From Amyelois transitella (taxonomy: Eukaryota > Arthropoda > Insecta > Lepidoptera > Pyralidae): 64,000 bases of DNA. The stretch spans positions 9,796,001 to 9,860,000 of the forward strand of contig NC_083513.1 of assembly GCF_032362555.1 (NCBI RefSeq), in the 5' to 3' direction. The notes under the pieces were generated by a model, which made no database searches, was not told the DNA's origin, and saw only the letters and a list, made by a program, of their open reading frames with translations. The position numbers and the translations under genes are program-made. Below, piece by piece: positions 2,931 through 63,075 of the stretch (within the stretch, counting starts at the first letter, position 1; each line of letters opens with the position of its first letter).

Positions 2931-3199
2931 ACCGTGCCGTGTGGTTCCCGGCACCAATACGAAAAAGAATAGGACCACTCCATCTCTTTCCCATGGATGT
3001 CGTAAAAGGCGACTAAGGGATAGGCTTATAAAATTGCGATCCTTTTTTTTAGGCGATGGGCTTGCAACCTGTCACTGTTTGGATCTCAATTCCATCATTA
3101 AGCAGAGCAGCTGAATGTGGCCATTCAGTCTTTTCGGGACTATTGGCTCTGTCTACCCCGCAAGGGATGTAGACGTGACTATATGTATGTATGTATGTG
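2931..3199 (+). mobile_element. ATGT-tailed SINE-like repeat, near full length
   Basis: This is the reference copy for the commonest repeat here. In order it shows a GTTCCCGGCACC motif, CCATGGATGTCGTAAAAGG, a TTTGGATCTCAATTCCATC stretch resembling a degenerate tRNA B box, a short hairpin-like CAGTCTTTTCGGGACT, GCTCTGTCTACCCCGCAAGG, and a tail of ATGT repeats. It codes for nothing recognisable. Size, tail and copy number fit a SINE; the tRNA origin is inferred. Confidence 0.7.
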
Positions 3200-3204
3200 A
3201 AAAA

Positions 3205-3951
3205 AATATGAAATGGATAGACTGCCTAACCTGTTTTGATATATCAATAGAGCTGAAAGTTAGTAGTGGATCTGTCCTTCCAAGTTGAATCATTGGCCGG
3301 CAAACGCGGCAAGTATGCTCAAACCAGGCCGATACACACAGTCCGCAGAAGTAACATATACCTATAGTCTGTCTAACTGCCTTAAAATATATCAATGCAG
3401 CTGAAAATAGTGGATCCGTCCCTCCAAGTTAGCTCACCGACCACTTTAGCCCGGCAGAGGGGGCAATTACCATGCCTAATATGTCAGGTTTAAATACACA
3501 GTTCGCTAAAAACGTGGCTACATACATAGACTGGCCAACCGTTTTAAATATATCAATACAGCTGAAAGTCATACGTAGTGGATCCGTCCCTCCAAGTTGG
3601 TTCATCGGCGACTTTAGCCCGGCAGAGGGGGCAATTACCATTCCTAATATGTCAGGTTTAAATACACAGTTCGTGGCTACATACATAGACTGGCCAACCG
3701 TTTTAAATATATCAATACAGCTGAAAGTCATACGTAGTGGATCCGTCCCTCCAAGTTGGTTCATCGGCGACTTTAGCCCGGCAGAGGGGGCAATTACCAT
3801 TCCTAATATGTCAGGTTTAAATACACAGTTCGTGGCTACATACAAAGACTGGCCAACCGTTTTAAATATATCAATACAGCTGAAAGTCATACGTAGTGGA
3901 TCCGTCCCTCCATGTTGGTTCATCGGCGACTTTAGCCCGGCAGAGGGGGCA
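3205..3951 (-). repeat. tandem partial copies of the RNFT terminal RING exon
   Basis: The unit joins the last 81 bp of RNFT coding sequence (from the second CPLC cysteine pair to the stop) to about 78 bp of 3' flank. The authentic copy is 3793-3951. Near-identical copies are 3634-3792 (159 bp) and 3466-3633 (168 bp; an extra 9 bp near 3506). A more diverged tail copy ends near 3465. A still older one at about 3205-3360 keeps more of the RING, readable in part as FCGLCVSAWF and then CRVC. The copies lack an AG directly before the coding block, so they do not look like alternative terminal exons. Because 159 is divisible by three, two false open frames of about 200 aa run through the array. Confidence 0.85.
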
Positions 3952-6900
3952 AGTGTGTTCCCTATCGAGCCAGGCCGAGATGCACAGTTCACAGAAGATA
4001 TGGCTGCATCCCAATCGTACTGGGGTGGTGTAATCATCGTGGCAAATGGGGCAGGAGTCGCCGGCGGATAGAAGCTGCTCACCAGTCGGTTTCGTTCCGA
4101 GATTCTGTAAGAAATGTTGTTGTCAATACATGTAATGACTCAATAAACTGAGTAGCTTTGATGAAGGGCAAGGGTAGCTGTGCCCGCGACTTCGTCCGCG
4201 TGTTTTTTTGGGCATCATTGAAGTCCTCAAGGATGAATAATTTTACCCGTTTTTTTTTTCACATTTTCCATTATATCCTTGCTCCTTATAGTTGCAGCGT
4301 GATGTTATTTAGCCTAAAGCCTTCCACGATAAATGGTCTATTCAACGCAAAAAGAATTTTTCAAATCGAACCAGTGGTTCCAGAGATTAGCGCGTTCAAA
4401 CAAACAAACTCTTCAGCTTTATAATATTAGTATAGATAGTATAGATTATAATGCGTTTGCCTTCATCTGTTGGTAAGCAAGATGAGGCGTAAGATGGTGC
4501 CTATTCACTCTTGCCTTGAAAAAACCCAAGTTGTATGTATCGGGGTAGATAAATACATACATACCACCACGCCTATACGTCTACATACCACCACGTCTAT
4601 ATCCCTTGAAGAGAGATGCAGGGAGGGAATTGTAAATCACGGCATTTCGCGTGATAAAATATTTGGTGATTCACCAAGGTGCAAAGGGTGGGTTTATTGA
4701 CCGTTTACGGGTGGAATCCCTGTCCACGCGTTTGTTCTACACGTCTAAATGGATAAAACTATTCAAAATATTTATTATGTGAAGATATGTAACTATCTTT
4801 TTACAAAAAACCATGTAAATTCATCCAATTACTTAGCACTAACGTTTGCTTTTATCTCAGAAAATTAACTTATTTCCAAACAAATATAATATAAATCACT
4901 TTTTTGAAAATCAGAAATACCATTTTACAAAGATATTATATCAGGCCGCAGTACGAAGTTGCAAGTAACGTCCATATTATAAAAAAAAAACCCACCACAC
5001 TCTGCAACAGAGTCCAAGTGGCGTTCTTGAAGAGTCGCAGCCGCATCAGCACCTCTATAATCTTGGCGATCACGTACACCGACGTGAGGAACATCCCCAC
5101 CATCTTCTCTGAACCCTCGTAGGACTGCATGAGGAAGAAGATCCACGGCTGGATGGTCAACAGGGAGCGGTACAGTTGGGATATCGCCTCCACAAATAGA
5201 TAGACTTTGCCCTGGAATAAAAAGAATTTATTATTTCAATTTGACCACCTGTCACTATTTCAGTCACCTGTCACCTATCAGTCTATTCAAGACGGCTGGT
5301 TCTGTCTACCACGTAAGGGATATAGACGTGATAATGCGTATGTGTGTGTTAAATTTAATGCACAAAATTAACCATTACAATTGTCTGGATAATATATCTC
5401 TCTCTCCTTTCCGCGTGTTCCCAGTTGCACCCCCCGCAACGATGCTTCGGGGCCGGGGTCCGCCTATCAATCAATCATTCAGTATAATATGTACCCACAG
5501 AATGAACTGTGTATGTACCACATGTGAAGTAAAATAAAAAAATAATATTTGTAAGAGTTTACATAGAGTAGCACTAATAGTTTATCTCTTAATTTGTAAT
5601 TTCATCAAAACTGGCTTACTATTAGTGTGCTTATAAGGCAGAATCCCTTAAACATAATACTAACCCTTTTCTGAAATGGCAGCAAAAAAGCCGGCATCAT
5701 AGTGACAAACACTTTGATATCCACCGTTATAATCTTCACGATGAGATCAGTCAGTACGACAAGCCACAATAGTTCCCAGACGTTGATAGACTCCCGGTAG
5801 CCGGGAAACATCACCACATTGGGCAGGAGTTTGTCGTGGCCAAACAAGTAGTGAACTATGATGATACAGCTGCTGGTGAAGACCAGCTCGCTGAATAGAG
5901 CCAGTATGCTCCTGTTCATCTGTTTTCCATGTTCTCTTAAAAATTAAAGTGAAAGAAAAGTTAATATAGGAAAATAAGGCTTTTATTTTTTGTGGTAGAT
6001 AATGGTAAAGGGACAAGACAGAGAGAGAAATAAGATTTAAAATGGACATGTATTATAGCATGGACATTGGTCAAGATGTTAAGCCATTTTGCTGTCAGTT
6101 TTTGAAGAAATAGAGTTAATACTACTAGATACCTACGAAATTGATATATATTTTTTTTATCTTAGCAATTGATTATTGAAAAATGGTCAATATTTATCTA
6201 TGTTCAAGAAATATTTACATAAAAATAGGAATTATATTTTTGTTCCCCTTAATTGAGGAACAAGAATATCAATAGAAAAAAACTTACCTTCTAACAAGAC
6301 TGTTAGCATGTGTGAACGTGCAGAACAGTACAATAAATGTGAACAGTCCTTCCCGACTGTCGTACATGAATTTAATGAATAATATGAAATAGAAGGGAGC
6401 GTATCTAATCAACAGGTTCAGTGTCGACCTGACGTCCACTACCTGAAAATAAATATTTTGTATATGATATATGTATATTTTTTTACAAACTTTTATAATA
6501 ATAGTTATGTTTTCTTTGTATAAGTCATTAAAAAAATTAAAGATTCTACAAATTTATTTACATTTATTATAAATATTGTACAAGAGGTGTTGATCTAAAA
6601 TATAGTATAGAGATTAGTAACAATTACATGTTATAAAATTTCATAAAACTGTAATAAATTTATTTATGAACAACTCTTGTTGGCTACTATCATTTGTAAA
6701 ATATGTTCTTCATCCTACTCTCTCCTCTTCACTAAGCACTACCATGCAGCTCACTCTTTGAAATGAAAATATCACTCAAGAGAAATGATAAATATTTATG
6801 CCTACCTGTTGTGTCCCGTCGTCACTCTGGCTGTCATTGTCAGCGTTGTCATGGATATTATTATTATTGGCCGGGTTCACTGACACATTGATCTCCTGGT

Positions 6901-8822: not shown

Positions 8823-11800
8823 TCACGCTTCAGTATCGGGCCGTAGCGCGAGCACTCCCTGCTCGTGGAGGTCTCGCACTGCTTCCAAAAGACGTCTCTC
8901 AGCTCTAGGTTCTCCTAACGCAACATCTACGCTGCCAGCACATAGCAACAACGCTCGTAACGCCGCTCTAGGCCAGTCCGGCCGCAACCCTCGTCGCACA
9001 GCTGCCCCTGCAGCGGACGCCCCTAATCTCGCACACTCAGCTTCCAAACGATCCCCATATTCTTCTATCAAACTATCGCCCACCGATCTTCTCATTTCAG
9101 GTGTCAGAGACGAAAGTAGCAACAGCGCTACGTCATCCATCGGTCGTCCAAGCGATACCATTTGCCAGTCCAACGCCATACACTCGCTGACACCATCTCT
9201 TTCTCTAAACAATAAGTTTCCGCTCCAAAAGTCGGCGTGGGCAAGTGGAGCGGGCTCGGCAGGCCGCAGTAGGGTTCCTAGCAAGGAAGGCGCTCGTGAC
9301 ACTAATTCTGACACTGCTGCAGCTTCTTCGCAGCAGTCTGTTCGCCCTCGTAGAAACGACTCGAGTTGTGGAAGACCTCGTCGAACAAGACGGAGATATC
9401 CCGCTGCCGCTCTCTCACAAGGAAAAAGGAAGTCGAATCTTTGGTCTAGGGGGCCTTCTCTTTCGCGGAGGGCGAGGGAAAGGGCGTGAAGACGAGCAGC
9501 TGCGTGAAGCGCAGACCTCGCACGCTCTTCTGTGAGACCTTCAGCGAAGTCTGCAGACTCAAAACCTTCGGCTGTAACATCTTCCAGAACTAATTCGCTA
9601 TCACCTCCTATTTCATCTGCAAAGAGATAGAAGAATTTTATGTACCTACGTTATGATTTTTGTTTAGGTAATGTCACTTGGGTATTGAACGAGGAGTCAG
9701 ACTGATTTGTTTTTCTGTTACATACATCCCTTGTGGGGTAGAAAGCCAACAGTTTTGAAAAGATTGAAAGGCCAATACAGCCGTATCAGCAATGATGGAA
9801 TCGAGATTCAAATAGTGACAAGTTGCTAGTCCATCGCCTACAACAAGAATGCCAATTTTATTATCCTTTCAATTAGTCGCCTCTTACGACATCCATGGGA
9901 AAGATATGGACTGGTACTATTCTAAAGTGTATACCGTGCGGGCACCATACCGTATTAAATTCAATATAAAAATATCGGATCTCAACTTCATTCCAGTTAT
10001 TTTTTTTTCTGGTTAAAGCAGAGAAAGAAGCTTCAAAAATACTGGAACTGTAAGTTACATAGCCAAGTCAAGTTAAAATTAGGTCATATAAGTACATGAT
10101 AGTAAAATAGGTCGAGGCACGACTGCGTCATCATAAGGTGACCAGTCAAGTGCTATTCACATCTTATTGTGCTATCCTCTGGTGCTATGGCACTTTTTAA
10201 TAAGGTGACAAAGTGAGCAATACTTTTATTTAAATACGGAAGTAAGTTTTTTGTATTCTTTCCAGGAAACCCACTGAACCGATTCTGAAGAAACTTGGTG
10301 AAAATATAGTTTAGAACTAATTTATGTAACTAGTAGATGTTTGATACGGCTTTCGAAAGAAACTAGGTAAATATGGTATTCTTTTCAGTCACTTATCTTG
10401 ATCTAACGTCTATTTTGCGTCAGTTATTCTTTGTGGTTATAAATAACAGTGATGACTAATTAATTACAAAAAAACATAATTAGAATAAATAACAGTGATG
10501 ACTAATTAATTACAAACAAACATAATTAGATCATACCATTACCTGCATTTCTTGTGCTATTTTGTGAGTCATAACCTTTTCTACTATGTTATTCTTAAAA
10601 TTACACCCATTCATCATTTTCCCGTGGCCATCGTAGGAGGTGCCTTAGGGAATTAGCAGTTCCACCTATTTGAGGTTAAACAAAGACCTTTTCAATGGAT
10701 TCCCACGGGAACGGTAAATCTGGTATTTTGGTTTAATGTGGAGAAGGGGGCTATAGGGGAATATTTATTTTACACAAACCTGGTAATCTCGCCTTCACGC
10801 ACCTAGGCACCGGCAAGCCCATACCGGGTCCAAGTTCTTCTTCGGCCAACCTGTTCAGCGCTGGTGCCAATTCAGTATAAAACAGTATTTCTCTGGTGTC
10901 AAATTGGGCCTCTGCCACGAACAGTCTCCCGAAAGGGTCTCTGGGAGGCAGCTTGACAACGAGGGGCAAAGCCCTACGCTCGCCGGCGCTTTCATAGCGG
11001 ACTGTTACGGCGAGCACCCTGCTCAGGGCGCCGGCGACTCCTGCACGCGATTCCACGCGGACCTTTAAATTAATTATAGATATTTAAAACCACGCCTCGT
11101 TTCTGAATTATACGCAGAGACTACATATTTACATTTGTCAAGTACAATAATCGCTTTATGCGCATTCATGCAAGATCGTCGATTTCGCCAAAATGTTCCC
11201 AATAACAAAATTTGTTATCAACAATGTACCTATGAGGTTGATGTCGAACTTAATTATTAAAGCGCTTTGAGTTTAAATTCTCAAAGATATACTTAGTGTG
11301 ATTTTCGACAATAATGAAACAAAATGAATTCACAACTCCAAATTTTATTCAATATTATGGGACATTTCGAAGATCAAAACGTGCTGTGTGGTTCCCGGCA
11401 CTATTAGTAAGAGAATAAGACCACTCCATCTCTTTCCCACAGATGTCGTAAAAGGCGACTAAGGGATAGGCTTATAAATTTGGTATTCTTCTTGTAGGCG
11501 ATGGGCACCTGTCTCTATTTCAATCTCAATTCTATCATTAAGCCAAACAGCTGAATGTGACCTGTCGGTCTTTTCGAGACTGTTAGCTCTGTCTACCCCA
11601 CGAGGGACATAGACGTGTTTATGTATGCACCTATGTGCATTTCGAACATCACTTATTAAGTTATTGTCATAATTTTCAGCTTCAATTTATTTCCATACCC
11701 GGCCAACAGATCAAAGAATTTTCTTACCTACAGGACCAAATTTGGACGATATGACGAATGTCACCTCTACAATCGTGGGCCAAATAACGTGCATGTTAGC

Positions 11801-16410: not shown

Positions 16411-19400
16411 TTATAGTTCGTCTTTGGCTGTCGTTGGCTCCGAGACAACTTCGGCCTCTGTAGCAGCCTCGCCGCTCTCAGATAGTCCTAGCTGCTCATT
16501 GATTAGTGTAATAAGACTCTCCAATGGCCGTCCGCCGTGTTCCACTTGGATAATTTTCTTATGCTTGTATAATATTAGCGTTGGAAGACTGTTTATCTGT
16601 AAATAGAAAATGACACATATAAGTGCATTGTGATGTTAGTCTACGGGAATATGAACTTTGATGATTCTTCTCATCTGAAGTTGTTGCAGATCTTATCAAC
16701 TCATCATCATGATTATAGGCTTACCAGGGGCTCTTTAGCAAGTAGGTAAGAATGGGAAAAACAAGTGATGAATGATGACAGATATAAAAAAAAGCCTATG
16801 TCAAACCGGAAGATCTATATTTAACTGTTTTAATTTCTGAACTCAATATATTGCAATGGTTCTTGAGTTTATTCATTACAAAAATACAAACCTCTACTCT
16901 TTAATAATTATATTTGATAGTTAGGCTGTCTACTCCGCAAGGGATAATATTTAAGTATGTATGTACATACATATGGTCACGTCTATATCCCTTGTGGGGT
17001 AGACAGAGCCAACAGTCTTGAAAAGACTGAATGGCCACGTTCAGCTATTTGGCTTAATGATGGAATTGGGATTCAAATAGCCCATCGCCTAAAAAAAGAA
17101 TCCCAAGTAAGTAAGCCTACCCCTTAGTCGCCTTTTACGACATCCATGGGAAAGAGATGGAGTGGTCCTATTCTTTTTTGTATTGGTGCCGGGAACCACA
17201 CGGCACGGTATGTATGTGCATCTAATCAAATTCATCTGCCTCCACTTGTAATCTAGCCTTCACCTTTTCAGTGTCGCAGACGGGTTTGGAGCGCACGCAG
17301 TCCACGTCGGCGATGAGCACGCGGCTCTCGTTCAGAAACCGCTCACCCAGCTTCAGCCAGAGCGGGCTCAGCTGCATGCAATGTGCGCACCTGGAACAAA
17401 ATACACTTTGATTGTATTTTGTTCTTTAAATTATCAAATGAAATAACCTACTATGATTATATTTCTCTAATTTTGTTCGCAAGGTTCGCAAAGAAACTAG
17501 TAACTTTCTAGACAAAGAAAAAAAAAATTTGGAAAAATTTCTTTGGAAAACTGTTGCATTTGTAATTAAACTGTAAACTATGACATCCTTACTTCTTCTG
17601 TTATTCAAAAGCAGTACAAGTCCACAATTTCCCATTGTACCATGAGACTAATTTAGAAATTGATACCAGTGTAGAAAGGAAGCTGAGTAGAAAATTATGC
17701 TGTCAGCCAATACAAAAACATGAGAAAGAGAATGACTTACCATGGGGCAAAATAATTTATGAAAACCAAATCTTTTTCAAGGAATGTTTCGAACGTCTCC
17801 TCAGAAATCCTGGCCACAGGCAATGCTTTCTTTTTCTTCATAAACTTCTCTGGGTCGTGATTCTCCGCTAATAACATTTTCTCCACATAAGCCTTCAAAT
17901 CTTCTATGTTCTTACCCAAGTTCATATTGGCGTCGCCCATCTGTTAAATTTATAAAAAAAATTGTTGGACACAGCCGACCGCATATGAACATAGTGAGAA
18001 AAATCAGTCGATAAATAAGTTGATTTATAAGTGCATACTCCATAGGTTTAAAATTCAATAATTTTAGTTAGCGATCCAAATACACATTGTTCACTACGTT
18101 CTTTTACTTCCCCACATACTAGGTCATAAGAAATATAGTAAATATCATGTTTTCCTATTAGAATCTTATTAGAATTCATCAACTAAACTAAAAAACTAAA
18201 ACAAAGGTAAGTTTATGTCAGCTACCTTAGTGCAACTTCATCAGGCACTGAGCTTTGAACCTAAGAATCCTATGATGACAGGATTGATAGGTATACTCAC
18301 AATTCTTCCATTGACTATCCACAATAACAGTGGGTACTGTTTGATATCAAAGTTCTTGCACGTCATGTCATTCTCCATGCAGTTCACTTTGCCAATTTGA
18401 ATGTACTCATTGTGTGCATACTGTACTGCCAACTCGGCCCAGAGAGGAGCCAGTTTCTGTAATCATAATATAAACATAATTTATATGGAACAAATCACAC
18501 AGAGACCATCAGTGTTCGAATCGATAAGGAGCCCTATTTATAAAATGCTTAATATGCACTTGGGAGGCAGAAGTACAAATCCCACCTATACCATATACCA
18601 ATGACTCCTATAGAAAACCTTAATTTCTGAATAAAATATTGATTGTGACTCTATTTTTCTGAGTTGTTCGAGTGGTAATTAATCTTAAAACATCTTAAGG
18701 AAACCTGCACCACATTCAAGCAACTGAATGTCTGCTCAATAGTAAAAGTGGAAACTAATATAATAAAAATAGAATTTATGCAAATTGTGAGTACTAAAAT
18801 TACCTGCGACGCCTTGCACCAAGGTGCATAAAACATGACAAAATGTTGCCCTTTTGATATAAATTTCTCAATGTTCTGATCAGTCAGGTATGCCATGCCG
18901 CTGTATATCTTAACTTCACTGGATTCTTTCCTCTTCATTTCCTGATATGTGAAATAAATATGAATATTTTTTTTTAAGAATTGGACATTATTAATTTTGA
19001 CAATACTTGATATTTTGCTACATTTATAATAAATGTATTTATATTTTTTATTCAAAGATGAATTAAGTATTTATTTCTTTCTTTCTACTTTATTCACTAT
19101 TTTTCTTTATTTCATGGCTTATTTGTGTTCAGTATAAAAGAGGCTGGGATGAAAAATGCCAGCCTCTCTCTCTCTCCTTTCATCTATACCTCAAGAATAG
19201 GAAAAGAATATAAACAAGACTAAGCCAGGGCAATGTTTTAGAACAAATCTTTAGGATAAGTTACACATTATAAGTTATACCTCTAACTTCATAGTGAAGA
19301 CATCACTCAGGAACAAAGTCAAAGAAGGCAGGTCCCTTGTTCCTTGGTACTCCACTGGGGTAAATGTGTTCTTGTGGAAATAAAGCAATGTCGGGTATCC

Positions 19401-21427: not shown

Positions 21428-27882
<6,455 letters not shown>

Positions 27883-35321: not shown

Positions 35322-38300
35322 TTAAAGTTCGCCCGCGTTACACGCGTCTTCGTAACTCTTCCCCTTCTGTTCCGGATCTAGTTTGATCATGTCGTCGATG
35401 CGCAGGATCGTGATGGCGGCCTCCGTCGCGAACTTGAGGGACTTTATCTTGGAGACGGCGGGCTCGAGCACCCCGGCCGCCAGGTTGTCTCGCAACGTGC
35501 CCTCGGTGAGGTCGAGGCCGACCCATTTTAGGTTCGCGTGTTCGACCTGAAATACAATTATTATTAATTAAATTTTAAAATATTTTTTTAACTCACTTTT
35601 AGCTAAATTATTTTAAAATATGTAATTTTGGAATGAGCCAAATTAAACTTTAAACTAATAATAAAATAAAAAAAAGCTGATTTCAAACTAAAATTAAAGA
35701 TAAGAAGAATATAGAAACTATAAAAATATTAATAAACTTAAGCTTCTTCTTTTAGACGATGGGCTAGCAACCTTTCACTAATTGAATCTCAACTCTATCA
35801 GCAAGCCCACTAGCTGAACGCTGCCTATTAGTCTTTTGGACTGACTGTTAGCTTTCTACCCCGCAAGTGATATGAACATGACTACATGTATGTATATATG
35901 TACCAACAAATCCTGATATAAACATGACTATATATATGTATGTATATATGTGCCATGTGGTTCCCGGCACCAATACAAAATAGAATAGGACCACTCCATC
36001 TCTTTCCCATGGATATCGTAAAAGGCGACTAAGGGATAGGCTTACAATTCTTTTTTAGGCGATGGGCTAGCAACCTATCACTATTTGAATCTCAATTCTA
36101 TCATTAAGCCAAATAGCTGAACGTGGCCATTCAGTCTTCTCAAGACTGTTGGCTCTGTCTAGCCCACAAGGGATATAGACGTTACCATATGTATGTATGT
36201 ATGTATGTTTGTACCTACAAAACCACCATTAACTGTAAAGAGACTTCCATACCTTGGTCTGTGAAGAGTTGTGGTACGCCCGCAGCTTGGCCACGAGGTC
36301 GGTAGCGTCGCGCGCAGCGTTCACTGCCAACGTCTTGGGGATCACGAGCAGCGACTGAGCGAACGCTGCTATGGCAAGTTGTTCGCGGGAGCTCTGTTAA
36401 TAATTAATTAATATAAATATACATATAGGACAAATTACACAGATCGAGTTAGCCTCGAAGTAAGTTCGAAACTTGTGTTACGAGATACTAACTCAACGAT
36501 ACTATATTTTTTTTATAATAAATATGTACCTAGCGGGAGCGATGATTCGGCTCGACCGCCACCAAAGGGAAGATCTTCCGCCAGGCTAGGTGTTATGCCT
36601 GGGGAACCGCGGCTCCAACGATGTTGTGTCGGAGGTTGTATATATAGCTCCAATCCGTGAAATCTCTGAAATCGCGATTTATGTTCTTCGCTGCTATTGG
36701 CTGAGCGCGTCAATTACTACGCGATGATTGACAGTTGTTGTGTGATTTGATGTTGTTGACGAGTGGCGTAGAGATGTCGCCATAAATACTTATATAGATA
36801 AACATCCAATACCCAGACCAATCAGAGAACGTTCCGTTTCTCATCATGCCCTAACCGGGATTCGAACCCGGGACCTCCGGTGACACAGACAAGCGCACTA
36901 CCGGTGCGCCACAGAGGCCGTCAAATAACATTGCATGGTTAGTTGTTTGTGACAAAGCTTTAGAAGTTACGTTCTAAAAATGTAAATACATTATGTTCAA
37001 ACTATTTATGACTGAAACTGGCCACTTAGAAAAAAAGAAAAACCAAAATAGAATGTTAAGTCAGATGTTGTTTAAAAAAGCATATTATTGTGAAATATCA
37101 GTCCATTGTCGTTCATATTAGTTCAGTTCATCAATAAATCTTAATTGTATTGTCAAACTACCTTAATCAGTTATTACAGTTCAGTGTTATATTCAAGCAA
37201 GTGCATTTTTACTTTTACCATCATAAATTCCCACTGTAAATTTTTCAAAATCAAACCAAGATCAGCTTTAACACATTAGTTAATGTGTAAACCAGGGACA
37301 TTAAACCATGATGCGGGCCTTACTCGCTGTATATTTTTCCTTACAGAACTTTACCAGTGCCTGCACTCTCATTATTTTTTCGTGCATATTCGATGATTAC
37401 AGGTATTTATCGATTGCATCGATTACTCTTAACATTTTCCTTTTTGAAGGCATAAAATATTCGTATATAATATTCTTACATAGGTCTGTAAGGATCGTAG
37501 TAAGTGGAAATGCATAGTCACTGCCTACCCCAATGGGAGACAGGCGTGATGTTATGTATGTAACCTTATAATAATATAATGTGACCAAATATCGTAATAT
37601 TGTCTAATAGATATTCATGTGAGGTCTTCCTCAAAGCTCTTCAGAATTTGAAGTGCAACTAATCAAATGGACCTTTCTTATCTATCGCGCTTCGAATTGC
37701 TTTTAAAATACTTAAGATTTTATTCTTCGAAGCGCACCCACTAAGAGGATCCCCTCTATGTTTAAGCTCTACGGAGCGGAGACACAAGATGACAATACGG
37801 AGATTATATTTTTTTTTTAAAACTGCCTCCATTGGATATCTTCCTTTTATGAAGTCGGTTAAACCTCTAAAACCTTCTAAGCATTACAGACACTTTTAAA
37901 AACCACATCAAAAACCGCTTCAGCGAAACGCGACATAATCACGGACAAACATATATATATATATATACAGGTCAAAAAGAGAATCACACCAACCAGCGTA
38001 GTTGAATAGTTGTTCATAGAGCGAGTAAGACATAGAGCGGATAGTTAATCAAAAACTCACTAAAATTTGTAAAGGTAATAATATTGTAAAATAAAACTTA
38101 AAACATTGAAATAAAACGTGAATTCTAACATGTCCTAACTTTTGCGTAAATAATGTGAAAAAAAAAAAAAAAAACAATTGACATTCATCTTTCAAAATTA
38201 AAATTAACTTTTTTTCACAAGCTGCCAGTGCGCTCAAACAAAACAAAACAAACGGCGGTCCCGCACAGAGCTCAGCAGCAGCACTCACCAGCGTGGTGGC

Positions 38301-41300
38301 GAAGTTCTCCAGGTATATGGAGAGCGCGGCCTCCACGGCGCCGCCGCCGGGCGCCAGGCGGCCCGACTCCAGCACGCGGCGCACGGCGCACAGCGCGTCG
38401 TGCGCCGAGCGCTCCATCTCGTCGCAGTACGCGTCCGTGGGCCCGCGCAGGATCAGCGACGCGGCCGTGCGGGCGGACGGGCTGTGGAGCGATCGAATGA
38501 TGCAGTGTTTGTTTTTTTTTTTTTTTTTCTCTTTGAAGGCAGCATAGAATAGAATAGATTTATTTTCAAAATTGGATACAAGGTATCACTTATTGACGTC
38601 ACATAACTTAAATCTAATTATAACTACTACCGCTTCCAAAGCGCAGTTACAATACTAATAGTCCAAGTGACATCATTAAGACCTAAATTACAGCTGAACG
38701 TGCCGTGTCTGTCTTTGCGAAACGTTTCGCTCTGTCTACCCCATCTATACTAATATTATAAAACTGTAGAGTTTGTTTGTTTGAACGCGCTAATCTCAGG
38801 AACAACTGGTTCGAATTGAAAAAATCTTTTTGTGTTGATTGGACTATTTATCGAGGAAGGCTTTAGGCTAGATAACATCACGCTGCAACTATTAAGGGCG
38901 GAGAAATAATGGAAAATGCGAAAAAAAACAGGTAAAATTATTCATCCTTGAGGGCTGCAATGCTGCCCAGAATAACTATTCCACGCGGACGAAGTCGCGG
39001 GCACAGCTAGTGTATGATAAATGTATCAAAATTTCAAAGTCACCTATTACCAATTCACCTGTTATTTGATATGGGTACCAATAATGTAGTGTTAAAAGTG
39101 CTGTGTGGTTACTGGCCCTTTAGAATAGGATCACTTTAACTCTTTCACATGGATGCCGTAAAAGACGATTAATTAAAAGATTCTTCTTGTAAACGATGAG
39201 CTAGCCACTTGTCACTATTTGAATCTAAATTACATCATTAAGACATAAATTACAGCTGAACGTGCCCTGTCAGTCTTTGCGAAACTCTGTCTACCCCATC
39301 TATACTAATATTATAAAGCTGAAGAGTTTGTTTTGTTTGTTTGTTTGTTTAAACGCGCTAATCTCAGAAACTACTGAACCGATTTGAATAATTCTTTCAC
39401 TGTTAGATAGTCTATTTATCGAGGAAGGCTATAGGCTACATTTTATCCCGGATTTTCTACGGGAAACGTCAACAATGCAGGTGAAAGTTGAATGAGTCGG
39501 CCATCTGCGAGCTTTCCACGCGAACGCTGCGCAAACCAACAAAGATATAGTAAAACAATGTACTAAAGATGTGAAGTACTCATTTTTTGCTACAAAAAAG
39601 TCCGCGAGAGCATATATCTATCTCTTAAGGTTTACTTACAATAACCACTTTTATGTTCATTTTTTAAGATTATTTTTTCATTATAAACATAAGTTATTTT
39701 GAAACCAATTTTCTTTAATACAGTATTAATCCTTATCCAAATAAATATGTTTATTACTTTCGGCTTTTCATGTAGACTAAAATTGCCATTTACAGTATAT
39801 AAATCAGACGAATAGGTTTTGAGATATAGTCGTTATAAGCAATTTGCAGCGAAACATTTAATACGGCGAACCAGCGTTCTTTCTAATACGCGTGACCGCC
39901 TGACCGACCCCCCTTGATAAAGCCGAGGAGGATATTTGCAAAAATAAATATGATGCCCAAAATAACTTTTCCACGCGGACGAAGTCGCGGGCACAGCTAG
40001 TAAGGGATATAGACGTGAATACATGTATGTCAAGACAGTACTGCTTACCCTTTGATCAAAATGAGTTGGTCATCACAGATTTGTTCTTGTACCACTTCGG
40101 CCGCTTCACCAATCATACTGGCCTCAAATACTTCTTCACCTGAAAATATTATCAACGTTTAGCAAACTATCATAAGCTATGAATTTTTCAGTCAAAATTT
40201 CGCGTGTTCTTGACGATTTTATAATTGAATTGTCGCTGTACATACAAATAGATACCTCTAGATTCTTTGCAGCTATTATTAAATATGGAATTTCACCTAA
40301 AAATTAACCTTATCATTGCCTTTATATAATTGTGTCAAAGTTGTGGATGCCGCCATAACGTAGGAAATTACCATTGCTTATAAATAAATATATACGGGAC
40401 AAATTACACAGATTGAGTTAGCCTCGAAGTAAGTTCGAGACTTGTGTTACGAGATACTAACTCAACGATACTATATTTTATAATAAATACTTATATAGAT
40501 AAACATCCAAGACCCAGGCCAATCAGAAAAAGTTCTTTTCTCATCATGCCCTGGCCGGGATTCGAACCCGGGACCTCCGGTGTCACAGACAAGCGTACTA
40601 CCGCTGCGCCACAGAGGCCGTCAAATGTAATTGTTCAATCAGATTAGAAGCCAAAAAATTGACTTACCTTCCATATTAGTAAGGGAAGTTAGGAAAGTAG
40701 CTCCCGTAGCCTTTGCGATTCTCTTCAGATCAGCCTTCTTGCATCTCCGGACGCCCATAGCACCGGCCTCTACAAAGTACTTGAGACAGAGGTCATCGAT
40801 TCCACCGGAGCAGAGGATCACGTTCACTCCGGTGGCGAGGATCTTCTGTAACCGCTCCTTTGTGATGTCCAACTCGCGGGCACGAATTGCTTCCAGTTTC
40901 TCGGGATCGGTGACCAGCACCTATGGGAAATATCAATTAAGCTGCAATTTTTATGCACATTTCTTACGTTGTGATTTGGTTCTACATAGAAAATGGTATA
41001 ATAAAGTTTGCCCTTCACCCCGAGGTCAATACTATTATTAGGGTATAACGCGGGTGACAGCTAGCATAAAAATGAGACAACGAAGATGTTTCATTCAACG
41101 CCTTTAACAAACAATCTAATAGCTAGCTTTATTTCCCTCTGAAAATTTTTATTGGACGTAAAACTGGACAGCCTTAGATTTTTCGCGCATAAATATGAAG
41201 GTATGTATGGAGTTGAGTGACTGCCATTTGACCTATATTACTTTTTACTGGTCCTTTCATTCTTTACATACAAACACACTATCTATCCTTGTATTGTAAT

Positions 41301-43602
41301 CTTAAGGGTTAAACATTGTTAAAAAAATAACTTTACCTGAACACCCATCTTCATCTTAGTCTTCTGAAGCGAGAAGTCCAAACATGCTATTTTAGCATTC
41401 ACGATCTTCTTAGGCATAGCTTGCGATGCCACAGTGCAATTCAGAGCGTACCCCTTGACTAGCACGCTCTCCCGGGCGCTCCTGCCGTGGGCCTTCAGAA
41501 TGTTTACAGCCTTGATCGGATACTGAGCGTTGCCTTTCGAGTCTGTGATCTTGATGGCCTGGGCAGCGTCTACTACCATCTCGGAGAAGAAATCTGCGTC
41601 ACTGGATGTGGTGTTAAGGAATTTTTGGGAGAATTACAATATTGGTTAAATTATTGAATAAGAATTTTTTTTTTATGAATTTTTAGATACAGAATTAAGT
41701 TCAAAGTTTCTATGTATCAGACAAATTAAGTGAAATCTCACAGAAAACATTTGTTAAGCCTAGAATACACTACATGGAAAAGCAGATCCCAAGCTCTGAA
41801 GCTTAATGGCAGAGGGTGCAACTGGGAACACGCGAACATGAGAGAGAGAGACACACTAAACGAGAAAGATTCAATACATTGAAATATTTCACTCCTAGAT
41901 AATATAACAATTTGTTATTTTCATACATATATTTTTATTTTATTAAAGCTTAAGTCGCGCATGGCTAATTTACCAGTCTTACAAGACTTTTTTAATTTGC
42001 AAAAGGATACGCTCCAATAAGCTTTGATGACATAGTAGTCTTGGCAGCATTGACGATGGACGGTCTGCCTAGGGACTCCACTGTGACTGTAAGGTTATCC
42101 TGCACATACTTCACGGCCTCCTTGCATGCGAGACGGTACCCAGAGATGATGCTTGTTGGGTGAATCTTGTTTTTCACCAGTTCATCGGCACTCTGATGAA
42201 ATAAATTCAAATTCAAACTTTTATTTGCATAATATGAGTACAACAATATTTTCCATAAACTCCTGTTCTCATTCTCAATGCTTACTTAAGGATATCAACA
42301 GACAAGCAGATAAATTAATGGGGACTTACATAATCTGAAACTTGGTTAACAGGAGGGCGAAAGAGATAGAAAAGTATTTCAGTTATTAAATACTTTCCCA
42401 AAACACATTTTAGATTTATTTTTGAACAATGCCAGAGTGAAAAAGAAAACTAGTAGTTTCGTCATCTGTTTTCAAACAAATTTAGATTTATTTTTGAACA
42501 ATGCCAGAGTGAAAAAGAAAACTAGTAGTTTCGTCATCTGTTTTCAAACTGAACTTTTTGTCAACTGTGTGTGAAATTTAGGCCCATGAATAAGGTCAAT
42601 TTCTTAGATGATCAGATTTTTCTAATAAGAAAGCTAACATGTTGCTAACTACCTACCTTTAGTAGTTCAGCAGCGATGATGACAACCGATGTGGTGCCAT
42701 CTCCGACCTCCTCATCCTGCAGCTGTGCCAGCTCTACCAGAACTTTCGCAGCCGGGTGCTCAACTTCCAACATTCTGGAAAATGATTTAAAGATTTATGG
42801 AAAAATTATGAATGTAGGTATATTTCATTTTGAAAATAAATAGTGCGTCAGTATAAATGTGCTTGTGCCGATTCATGAAGTGGTTCACAAGTCATAATGA
42901 AAAAATTAACTTTTTTACTTGAACTTTTGCCTTATTGTTGAGTGAGTACGTATTCTGTTGTAGTACAAGCAAATAGGGTAGCAAATTCACCCAGTGTTAA
43001 TTAACATTTCTGATATATTAATTCAGTAGTACCAGACAGTAATAGGTATCATGGAAACTATTGTGTTTGGTTGTTACTTACTTCAAAATCGTGGCTCCAT
43101 CATTTGTGATAGTAACTTCTCCAATTTCATCTACAAGCATTTTGTCAAGCCCCACGGGGCCTAGCGAGCTTTTGACAATATTTGCTATGGCTGCTGCTGC
43201 CATCACTGGAAATATTCATGATTTGTGCTTCAGTGAGTCAGTTTATAGATAAATACTATTATGCTAAGACGAAATGCCAAATTTTGGGCAACTATTTGAC
43301 TACTAATTCGAATACATAGGTTATTTTACTTGTAAGCAAACACAGTAATTCAACAACAATGATATATTGTGTGCAAAATAAATTATTTAGGGATCCCATA
43401 ATATTATGAAAGTTAAAATTACCGTCAACGATAGATATTTATCGAATTATAAACGTAATTGAAACCATAAGTGGGGTGCATGTGATCTACCGGGGTAACA
43501 TCGCGTGGGTTTTCACATAAATTTTTTACCATTTTGGGTTCTAACTGGAGCTCCTGATGTTCTGGTTCCAGCGACAGATAAGGGTGCTGCTAATGTCGAC
43601 AT
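35322..43602 (-). CDS. TCP1: T-complex protein 1 subunit alpha (CCT1)
   Basis: Ten exons: 43602-43530, 43205-43082, 42774-42657, 42192-42011, 41601-41337, 40920-40668, 40139-40049, 38481-38289, 36393-36253, 35546-35322; 554 aa, two fewer than the human protein. It is one of eight paralogous subunits of the cytosolic CCT/TRiC chaperonin, which folds actin, tubulin and other proteins using ATP. The N-terminus [12 protein letters not shown] and the block [20 protein letters not shown] identify the alpha subunit. ATP-site motifs are [22 protein letters not shown] and GDGTTS (90-95); D397 lies in ERSAHDAL and GGGAVE is at 414-419. Phases fit at every junction. Introns 36394-38288 and 38482-40048 are loaded with transposable elements. 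The tail [12 protein letters not shown] ends at a TAA. Confidence 0.96.
35748..35900 (+). mobile_element. ATGT-tailed SINE-like repeat, 5' truncated
   Basis: It begins at the AGACGATGGGCTAGCAACC block and ends with TGTATGTATATATG. It lies directly before a second copy in the same CCT1 intron. Confidence 0.6.
35950..36210 (+). mobile_element. ATGT-tailed SINE-like repeat, full length
   Basis: A complete copy from GTGCCATGTGGTTCCCGGCA to a clean ATGTATGTATGTATGT tail. It ends only about 45 bp before CCT1 exon 9. Confidence 0.7.
36411..36918 (-). mobile_element. tRNA-derived SINE (family B) split by an insertion
   Basis: The reversed SINE runs from TTAATATAAATATACATATA to the A-box complement near 36900 (CTACCGGTGCGCCACAGAGG). 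Its B-box complement is GGATTCGAACCCGGGACC. The element is interrupted at 36524-36781 by unrelated sequence. Confidence 0.8.
36524..36781. mobile_element. 258-bp GC-rich insertion inside a SINE
   Basis: It interrupts the SINE between ATAAAT at 36518-36523 and ATAAAT at 36782-36787; the intact copies at 40386 and 54077 have this site only once. No terminal inverted repeat or coding sequence was recognised, so its class is unknown. Confidence 0.6.
38545..38645 (-). mobile_element. very short LINE 3' end
   Basis: About 100 bp essentially identical to 25750-25850, the 3' end of the retrotransposon in warts, including the TAGAATAGAATAG tail. It is a severely 5'-truncated insertion 64 bp before CCT1 exon 8 (transcript sense). 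Confidence 0.8.
38665..39011 (+). mobile_element. SINE fragment with Lep1-type Helitron (first copy)
   Basis: A SINE-like piece (38665-38744, CATCATTAAGACCTAAATTA to TCTGTCTACCCC) joins a Helitron at 38745 that starts CTATACTAATATTATAAA and ends GTCGCGGGCACAGCTAGT. The same junction recurs at 39297-39300. Confidence 0.7.
39100..40030 (+). mobile_element. ATGT-tailed SINE-like repeat split by a 0.7-kb Helitron
   Basis: The SINE part at 39100-39297 stops at CTGTCTACCCC and resumes at 40002 with AAGGGATATAGACGTG and ATGTATG. Between them (39300-40001) lies a longer Helitron-like element with the same ends as the Lep1 copies. Confidence 0.7.
40386..40623 (-). mobile_element. tRNA-derived SINE (family B), intact
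   Basis: Best-preserved reversed copy. The B box is GGTTCGAATCC and the A box is TGGCGCAGCGGTAG on the minus strand; the downstream part contains ATAAGTATTTATTATAAAAT and the AAGTCTCGAACTTACTTCGA block. Located in CCT1 intron 6. Confidence 0.85.
42409..42550. repeat. 72-bp tandem duplication in CCT1 intron 3
   Basis: TTTAGATTTATTTTTGAACA and the next 49 bases occur twice with period 72 and no visible difference, implying a recent duplication. It does not touch an exon or a splice site. Confidence 0.9.
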
Positions 43603-54076: not shown

Positions 54077-54320
54077 ATTGTATTTTGACGGCCTCTGTGG
54101 CGCAAAGGTAGTACGCTTGTCTGTGACATCGGAGGTCCCGGGTTTGAATCCCGGCCAGGGCATGATGAGAAACGAACTTTCTCTGATTGGTCTTGGATGT
54201 TTATCTATATAAGTATTTATTATAAAATATAGTATCGTTGACTAAGTATCTCGTAACACAAGTCTCGAACTTACTACAAGGCTAAGTCAATCTGTGTGAT
54301 TCCTCCCGTATATATTTATT
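54077..54320 (+). mobile_element. tRNA-derived SINE (family B), forward copy
   Basis: Starts GACGGCCTCTGTGGCGCAAAG with A box TGGCGCAAAGGTAG and B box GGTTTGAATCC, then CCAGGGCATGATGAGAAACG. Ends CCCGTATATATTTATTAAG. The only forward copy of this family seen here. Confidence 0.8.
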
Positions 54321-62332: not shown

Positions 62333-62817
62333 TCTTTAAGGAATGCAGGTTACCTATTTTATTCACGTCGACAAAGCATACCTAAGTCTATCTCTAACTC
62401 TTACTCCCTCTATCTCTAACTCTAAGGTTGTGCAAAAAATATAGAAAGAGAAAGAAGATAAGACTTTTGTCTTGTCAACATTCGTGAATAGGCCTCCGGG
62501 TCAGTTCCCAATACTTACGCGTGTATGTCTCGTAGAAAACGAGTATATTTCCTAAAGTCGACATGAGGAAAAACAACAAAGCAATAAAAATAGTGATGAG
62601 CCCTTAAGGCATGTTGCCAAGACCTCAACTTCGTTCTTCATTTAGAATTTAGATTACTTTAGTTCACTAAATGTATAGCTACACCAAAATCTCAATAATT
62701 GACTGATTGACTGACAAAATACGTGCGGAATAGAATAGAATAGATTTAAATTTCAATATCTGATAGTGTACCATTAAAAAGATTTCCACTTTGTCCAATT
62801 TGATAACTATTGACTTG

Positions 62818-63075
62818 CCGTGTGCCGGCATCAATACAAAAAAGAATAGGACCACTCCATTTCTTTCCCATGGATGTCGTAAAAGGCGACTAAGGGATAG
62901 GCTTACAAACTTGGGATTTTCTTTTAGGCGGTGGGCTAGCAACCTGTCACTATTTGAATCTCAATTCTATCATTAAGCCAAATAGCTTAACGTGGCCATT
63001 CAGTCTTTTCAAGACTATTGGCTCTGTCTACCCCGCAAGGGATATAGACGTGACCATATGTTTGTATGTATTGAT
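62818..63075 (+). mobile_element. ATGT-tailed SINE-like repeat, full length
   Basis: A well-preserved copy from CCGTGTGCCGGCATCAATAC to ACGTGACCATATGTTTGTAT. Within a few percent of the 35950 copy by eye. Confidence 0.7.

Follow-up and report, generated by a model that had tools for sequence, protein, structure and literature searches.

Tandem arrays shaped by unequal crossing over and concerted evolution have the unit boundary at a common tract, hybrid units, and identical neighbours. A head-to-tail array found in a stretch of 64,000 nucleotides of the Amyelois transitella genome (positions 9796001-9860000 of contig NC_083513.1; below, the window) resembles them: its boundary lies at a common tract, its hybrid units join the tail of a gene to the RING half of an old copy, and neighbours are identical. 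It differs from such arrays in being very small and in having the 3′ end of a living gene as one of the partners.

Partial gene duplicates are reported to be frequent in worm, fly, and yeast genomes (PMC3449122). Like the partial tandem duplicates treated there, the array consists of local, incomplete copies of one gene with a broken frame. Unlike them, it involves just about 160 bases of a last exon, copied four times downstream, and the copies fall clearly into two classes of age. We are fairly confident that the array arose by partial tandem duplication of a gene and has no function of its own.

Among described proteins, the transmembrane RING E3 ligases RNFT1 and RNFT2 are the putative closest counterparts of the gene product. 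RNFT1 is reported to be responsive to ER stress and to have at least four transmembrane domains (PMC4971459). The parent gene of the array is similarly built, with hydrophobic segments and then a C-terminal RING, as in the RNFT family. In contrast to these ligases, the downstream copies have neither a complete RING nor a transmembrane part. The gene lies on the minus strand, its exon-like frames running from about 7504 down to 3871. In six of these frames joined by eye, hydropathy rises above 1.6 in five peaks, two pairs of which overlap, and this corresponds to about three separate segments; two of the frames have no Pfam family. An acceptor-like ...TTACAG stands immediately ahead of the last exon, which begins at 4104. 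The RING of this exon matches zf-RING_2 (E 1.1e-11) and exceeds the cut-offs of seven more Pfam RING models, and by sequence its best solved relatives include the RINGs of RNF4, RNF126, AMFR, and synoviolin. These PDB and Pfam matches are generic, and the name RNFT is absent among the best 60 of 153 PDB matches. We assume this name here from the earlier note and from a tail and layout that look like those of the family. Stop-codon read-through in the gene was rejected, as a second stop lies in frame two codons past the TGA. A set of alternative last exons was also judged unlikely: the RING sits in one exon, and every copy begins within that exon.

The gene is followed on its 3′ side by four partial copies (c1 to c4), all in the orientation of the gene. 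In order of transcription, the gene tail with its flank (3951-3831) is succeeded by c1 (3830-3672), c2 (3671-3513), c3 (3512 to about 3352), and c4 (about 3351 to 3217). The features are as follows:

3871..4104, minus strand: last exon of the RNFT-like gene, with the complete RING and a tail ending in DFQLY and the TGA stop (3871-3873)
3831..3951, minus strand: the tail of the gene itself, 81 bases including the stop, and its 3′ flank; apparent source of the near-identical unit, 119/121 bases identical to c1 and to c2
3672..3830, minus strand: c1, in which a decayed RING half precedes the tail, the stop, and the flank; 159/159 identical to c2
3513..3671, minus strand: c2, the same letters as c1
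3352..3512 (approximate), minus strand: c3, older, with nine extra bases in RING-codon register and a 7-base deletion in the tail
3443..3466, minus strand: 24-base tract in c3 at the border of the 159-base unit, with the same letters as gene positions 3929-3952
3217..3351 (approximate), minus strand: c4, older, with the RING remnant and the tail now out of a common frame
2932..3196, plus strand: SINE-like dispersed repeat, which bounds the far side of the array and has a direct repeat of 12 bases on its two sides, at 2920-2931 and at 3197-3208

The gene tail (3871-3951) and 78 further bases recur with a period of 159 bases through c1 and c2, and the spacing to c3 is 168 bases. Tandem Repeats Finder reported a single array at 3408-3952 with 3.4 copies and 95% matches. 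(Another tandem repeat of the window lies at 42401-42549, where a 72-base unit is present in about two copies (2.1) with 97% matches.) Local alignment against the gene gave scores of 232 for c1, 232 for c2, 108 for c3, and 84 for c4; the top scores among 200 base shuffles of each segment were 27, 22, 23, and 25, respectively. The four copies are confirmed as real repeats, and each of them aligns to the last exon and its flank, so that the match to the RING exon on which the earlier note had staked its reading was found. Its description of the last 81 coding bases and about 78 bp as present twice more in near-exact form also held. It had taken all of these 78 bp for flank, but only about 26-30 bases are true 3′ flank and the rest belongs to the next copy, as its decayed RING half. 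Judged by its letters, each unit is a decayed second RING half, a tail, and a flank, set head to tail. The 39 bases ahead of the tail in the unit align to the second half of the RING with no gap and with 23/39 identities to the gene. Nine of the 16 changes in this segment, counted on c2, are G to A or C to T, as would be expected of decay.

Where does the unit begin? Its identity to the gene drops sharply at 3951/3952, inside the RING codons: 20 of 20 bases match at 3950-3931, 9/20 at 3970-3951, and 15/20 at 3990-3971, after which the count is 3/20. The 24-base tract that the gene shares with c3 is likely to be the crossover tract. The RING halves of c1 and c2 are of the c3 type (38/39 to c3, against the 23/39 to the gene), and their tails are of the gene type (83/84). 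Such hybrids are what a crossover between the gene and c3 predicts, which would explain this combination in c1 and c2.

The older copies match the gene unevenly. If the tail is counted as 3868-3951, i.e., to three bases past the stop, c3 agrees with the gene at 23/39 positions of the RING segment, 69/77 of the tail (7 gap columns), and 18/28 of the flank. For c4 the RING segment agrees at 25/33 positions with 6 gap columns, the tail at 60/71 with 13, and the flank at 19/28. Together the identity of c3 and c4 to the gene is 85-90% in the tail and 59-76% to either side. The nine additional bases of c3 complete the string CSHVFSELCI (CSHIFCELCI in the gene), which is followed by two in-frame stops, and they are absent from c1 and c2. 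The RING remnant of c4 reads YFCGLCVSAWFEHTCRVCR in one frame. Two older, decayed copies do therefore follow, as the earlier note had proposed, but its remark that one of them keeps more of the RING needs correction: both have such remnants.

In c3 the RING segment (3466-3504) differs from the gene at 16/39 positions and the tail (about 3380-3465) at 8/77 (Fisher P 0.0002). In c4 the contrast, 8/33 against 11/71, is not significant (P 0.29). The pattern in c3 is unlike even decay after a single duplication, and we therefore assume either an extra conversion or crossover, or constraint on the tail; probably the gene has at some point renewed the tail of c3. When the comparison was extended upstream into the RING head, a weak additional match appeared for c3, one that 40 of 2000 shuffles also reached, and none for c4 (846/2000), which leaves it uncertain where the oldest unit starts on its 5′ side.

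These observations suggest the following history. In an old event, about 145-170 bases of the last exon, from within the RING through the stop, with 26-30 bases of 3′ flank, would have been duplicated head to tail. The products may be c3 and c4, which would have decayed afterwards. In a recent event, the gene tail probably mispaired with the homologous part of c3 at the 24-base tract. This mispairing would have led to unequal crossing over; slippage or template switching is an alternative route to the same outcome. Two identical units would have been added, in each of which the tail and 3′ flank come from the gene and the decayed RING half from c3. At some time the SINE-like element may have entered on the far side of the array. 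The direct orientation, the period of 159, the junction at common sequence, and the hybrid units are those of an unequal-crossover array, and slippage is also compatible with them. All copies derive from one parent gene and contain only part of it, as in partial tandem duplication.

The surroundings of the array are rich in repeats. The SINE-like element has both dispersed copies and a target-site duplication, its 12-base direct repeat having two matches in the window against 0.05 expected. Its family is dense here, with 15 other full or partial matches of 70-89% identity to the copy at 2932-3196 (e.g., 11380-11637, 16964-17211, 35950-36204, and 62816-63071). An Rfam scan of the 64-kb window gave four tRNA-type matches (22285-22356, 36847-36918, and 40547-40618 on the minus strand and 54091-54162 on the plus strand), and none of its matches fell at the array. 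Two of the four are tRNA-His by ARAGORN. The stretches around them are alike beyond the tRNA itself in the self-comparison, among the matches listed, and they seem to be copies of a dispersed repeat with a tRNA-type head, not tRNA genes. Other frames of the window include one at 8823-9650 (minus strand) with a match to the ecdysteroid kinase-like family (EcKL, E 6.6e-27), and a long one at 22950-25650 (plus strand) with a protein kinase segment behind it (25231-25647, Pkinase E 1.1e-16), which we take to resemble the Warts/LATS kinase.

The copies apparently cannot code for a working RING. Each of c1, c2, and c3 has one TGA and one TAA in the RING frame, and in c4 the frame is broken; an open frame with the full set of zinc ligands is thus lacking in all four, and coding copies were rejected. 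In a minus-strand frame of 236 codons across the array, all Pfam models stayed below cut-off. A plus-strand frame of 212 codons gave 22.5 bits for the z-alpha model against a cut-off of 21 (E 0.00012), with no single stretch passing and the best having 15 residues; we read this match as an effect of the repeats. Two of the six frames of the 159-base unit are open throughout, and two or more were open in 118 of 5000 base shuffles. This excess is mild, and we grade it as weak because part of the unit is genuinely coding and copies with the same letters amount to a single case. Neutrality of the array is the most likely conclusion.

The alternative with the most in its favour is that the array lies in the 3′ UTR of the RNFT-like gene and regulates its mRNA. 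It could do so by supplying protein or microRNA sites as repeated sense elements, or because a facing neighbour gene yields an antisense transcript with which it pairs. On the minus strand, none of the 12 polyadenylation hexamers scanned occurs from the stop down to 2793. Beyond this point there are TATAAA at 2792, AATGAA at 2641, ACTAAA at 2606, GATAAA at 2583, and CATAAA at 2439, with the first AATAAA at 2412. The transcript may thus run through the array, and given this hexamer-free stretch a position inside the 3′ UTR seems quite possible. The earlier note had expected such a transcript to carry antisense-identical RING segments; the copies are direct repeats, so a read-through mRNA would hold sense repeats instead. 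A facing gene is possible as well, since a plus-strand open frame about 4 kb before the window start has an IBR match (E 0.00017, 22.0 bits) that is weak, below the Pfam cut-off of 24.3. However, the two further plus-strand frames of this facing stretch have no Pfam family. All three presumably resemble parts of an RNF19-type ligase, and if so, the array would stand between two convergent genes. The c3 tail is better preserved than both its sides, which speaks for this reading, but the flank, a possible seat of UTR elements, is poorly preserved in both c3 and c4 (the 18/28 and 19/28 given above). Also, the RNA fold of the unit is no better than chance (z -0.55; 62 of 200 shuffles folded equally well or better). 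We therefore regard a regulatory role as improbable.

Ongoing gene conversion, in which the downstream copies would be donors and keep the functional RING tail of the gene homogeneous, is very improbable. It would account for the near-identity of the gene tail to c1 and c2 (119/121), for the 24 bases shared by gene and c3, and for the higher identity of c3 in its tail than in its RING. However, a recent duplication by itself yields near-identity, and any conversion that the data favour runs from the gene to c3. Furthermore, the gene and c1/c2 differ at two sites, 3913 (synonymous, ACA/ACT) and 3845 (in the flank), and in the alignment both c3 and c4 carry the c1/c2 state there. The agreement of the old copies with c1 and c2 places the changes on the side of the gene, which keeps its own state at both. 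On these two sites, the changes in the gene probably postdate the expansion, and no later overwriting has removed them. Of the duplication or local conversion at the 3′ end that the earlier note had offered, repeated duplication is thus retained, the mosaic of ages fitting recombination between copies, and conversion of the gene by the array is set aside.

An assembly artefact, in which the identical c1 and c2 were over- or under-counted, appears very unlikely too. The two are the same letter for letter, and the near-identical part is just about 0.5 kb long. Nevertheless, the contigs are chromosome-sized (33 in 327 Mb, that of the array being 12.0 Mb), c3 and c4 are diverged and hardly artefacts, and c1 and c2 differ from the gene at two sites.

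The array was found at one locus in the genome, within the limited sensitivity of searches that score best candidates only. When the assembly was searched with the DNA of c2, four matches were obtained, every one at this locus. The same search with c4 found c4 itself and missed c1, c2, and c3, so it is blind to copies diverged to this degree. With the protein of the last exon, 11 matches were obtained in the genome; four are here (the gene, c1, c2, and c3, with c4 not reported), and the other seven, on other contigs and with 31-50% identity, are presumably other RING genes. A scan of viral contigs gave no relative. A literature search found no report of this array among the papers listed, which does not imply its absence in print; the single paper with both RNFT1 and Lepidoptera deals, judging by its listing, with iridoviruses. 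The least probable suggestion is that the array serves as a standing cassette swapping tails with the gene through both crossover and conversion. Individuals would then differ in copy number and perhaps in the final 26 residues of the ligase, and the 3′ UTR would carry the repeats as sense elements.

Read as a partial tandem duplication, the array is a small, legible record of how the 3′ end of a gene may have been copied, decayed, and then re-expanded via a short common tract. Should the apparent age of the old copies be right, they are expected in related moths too, and their presence there would give the process a date. The array is probably irrelevant to what the ligase does.
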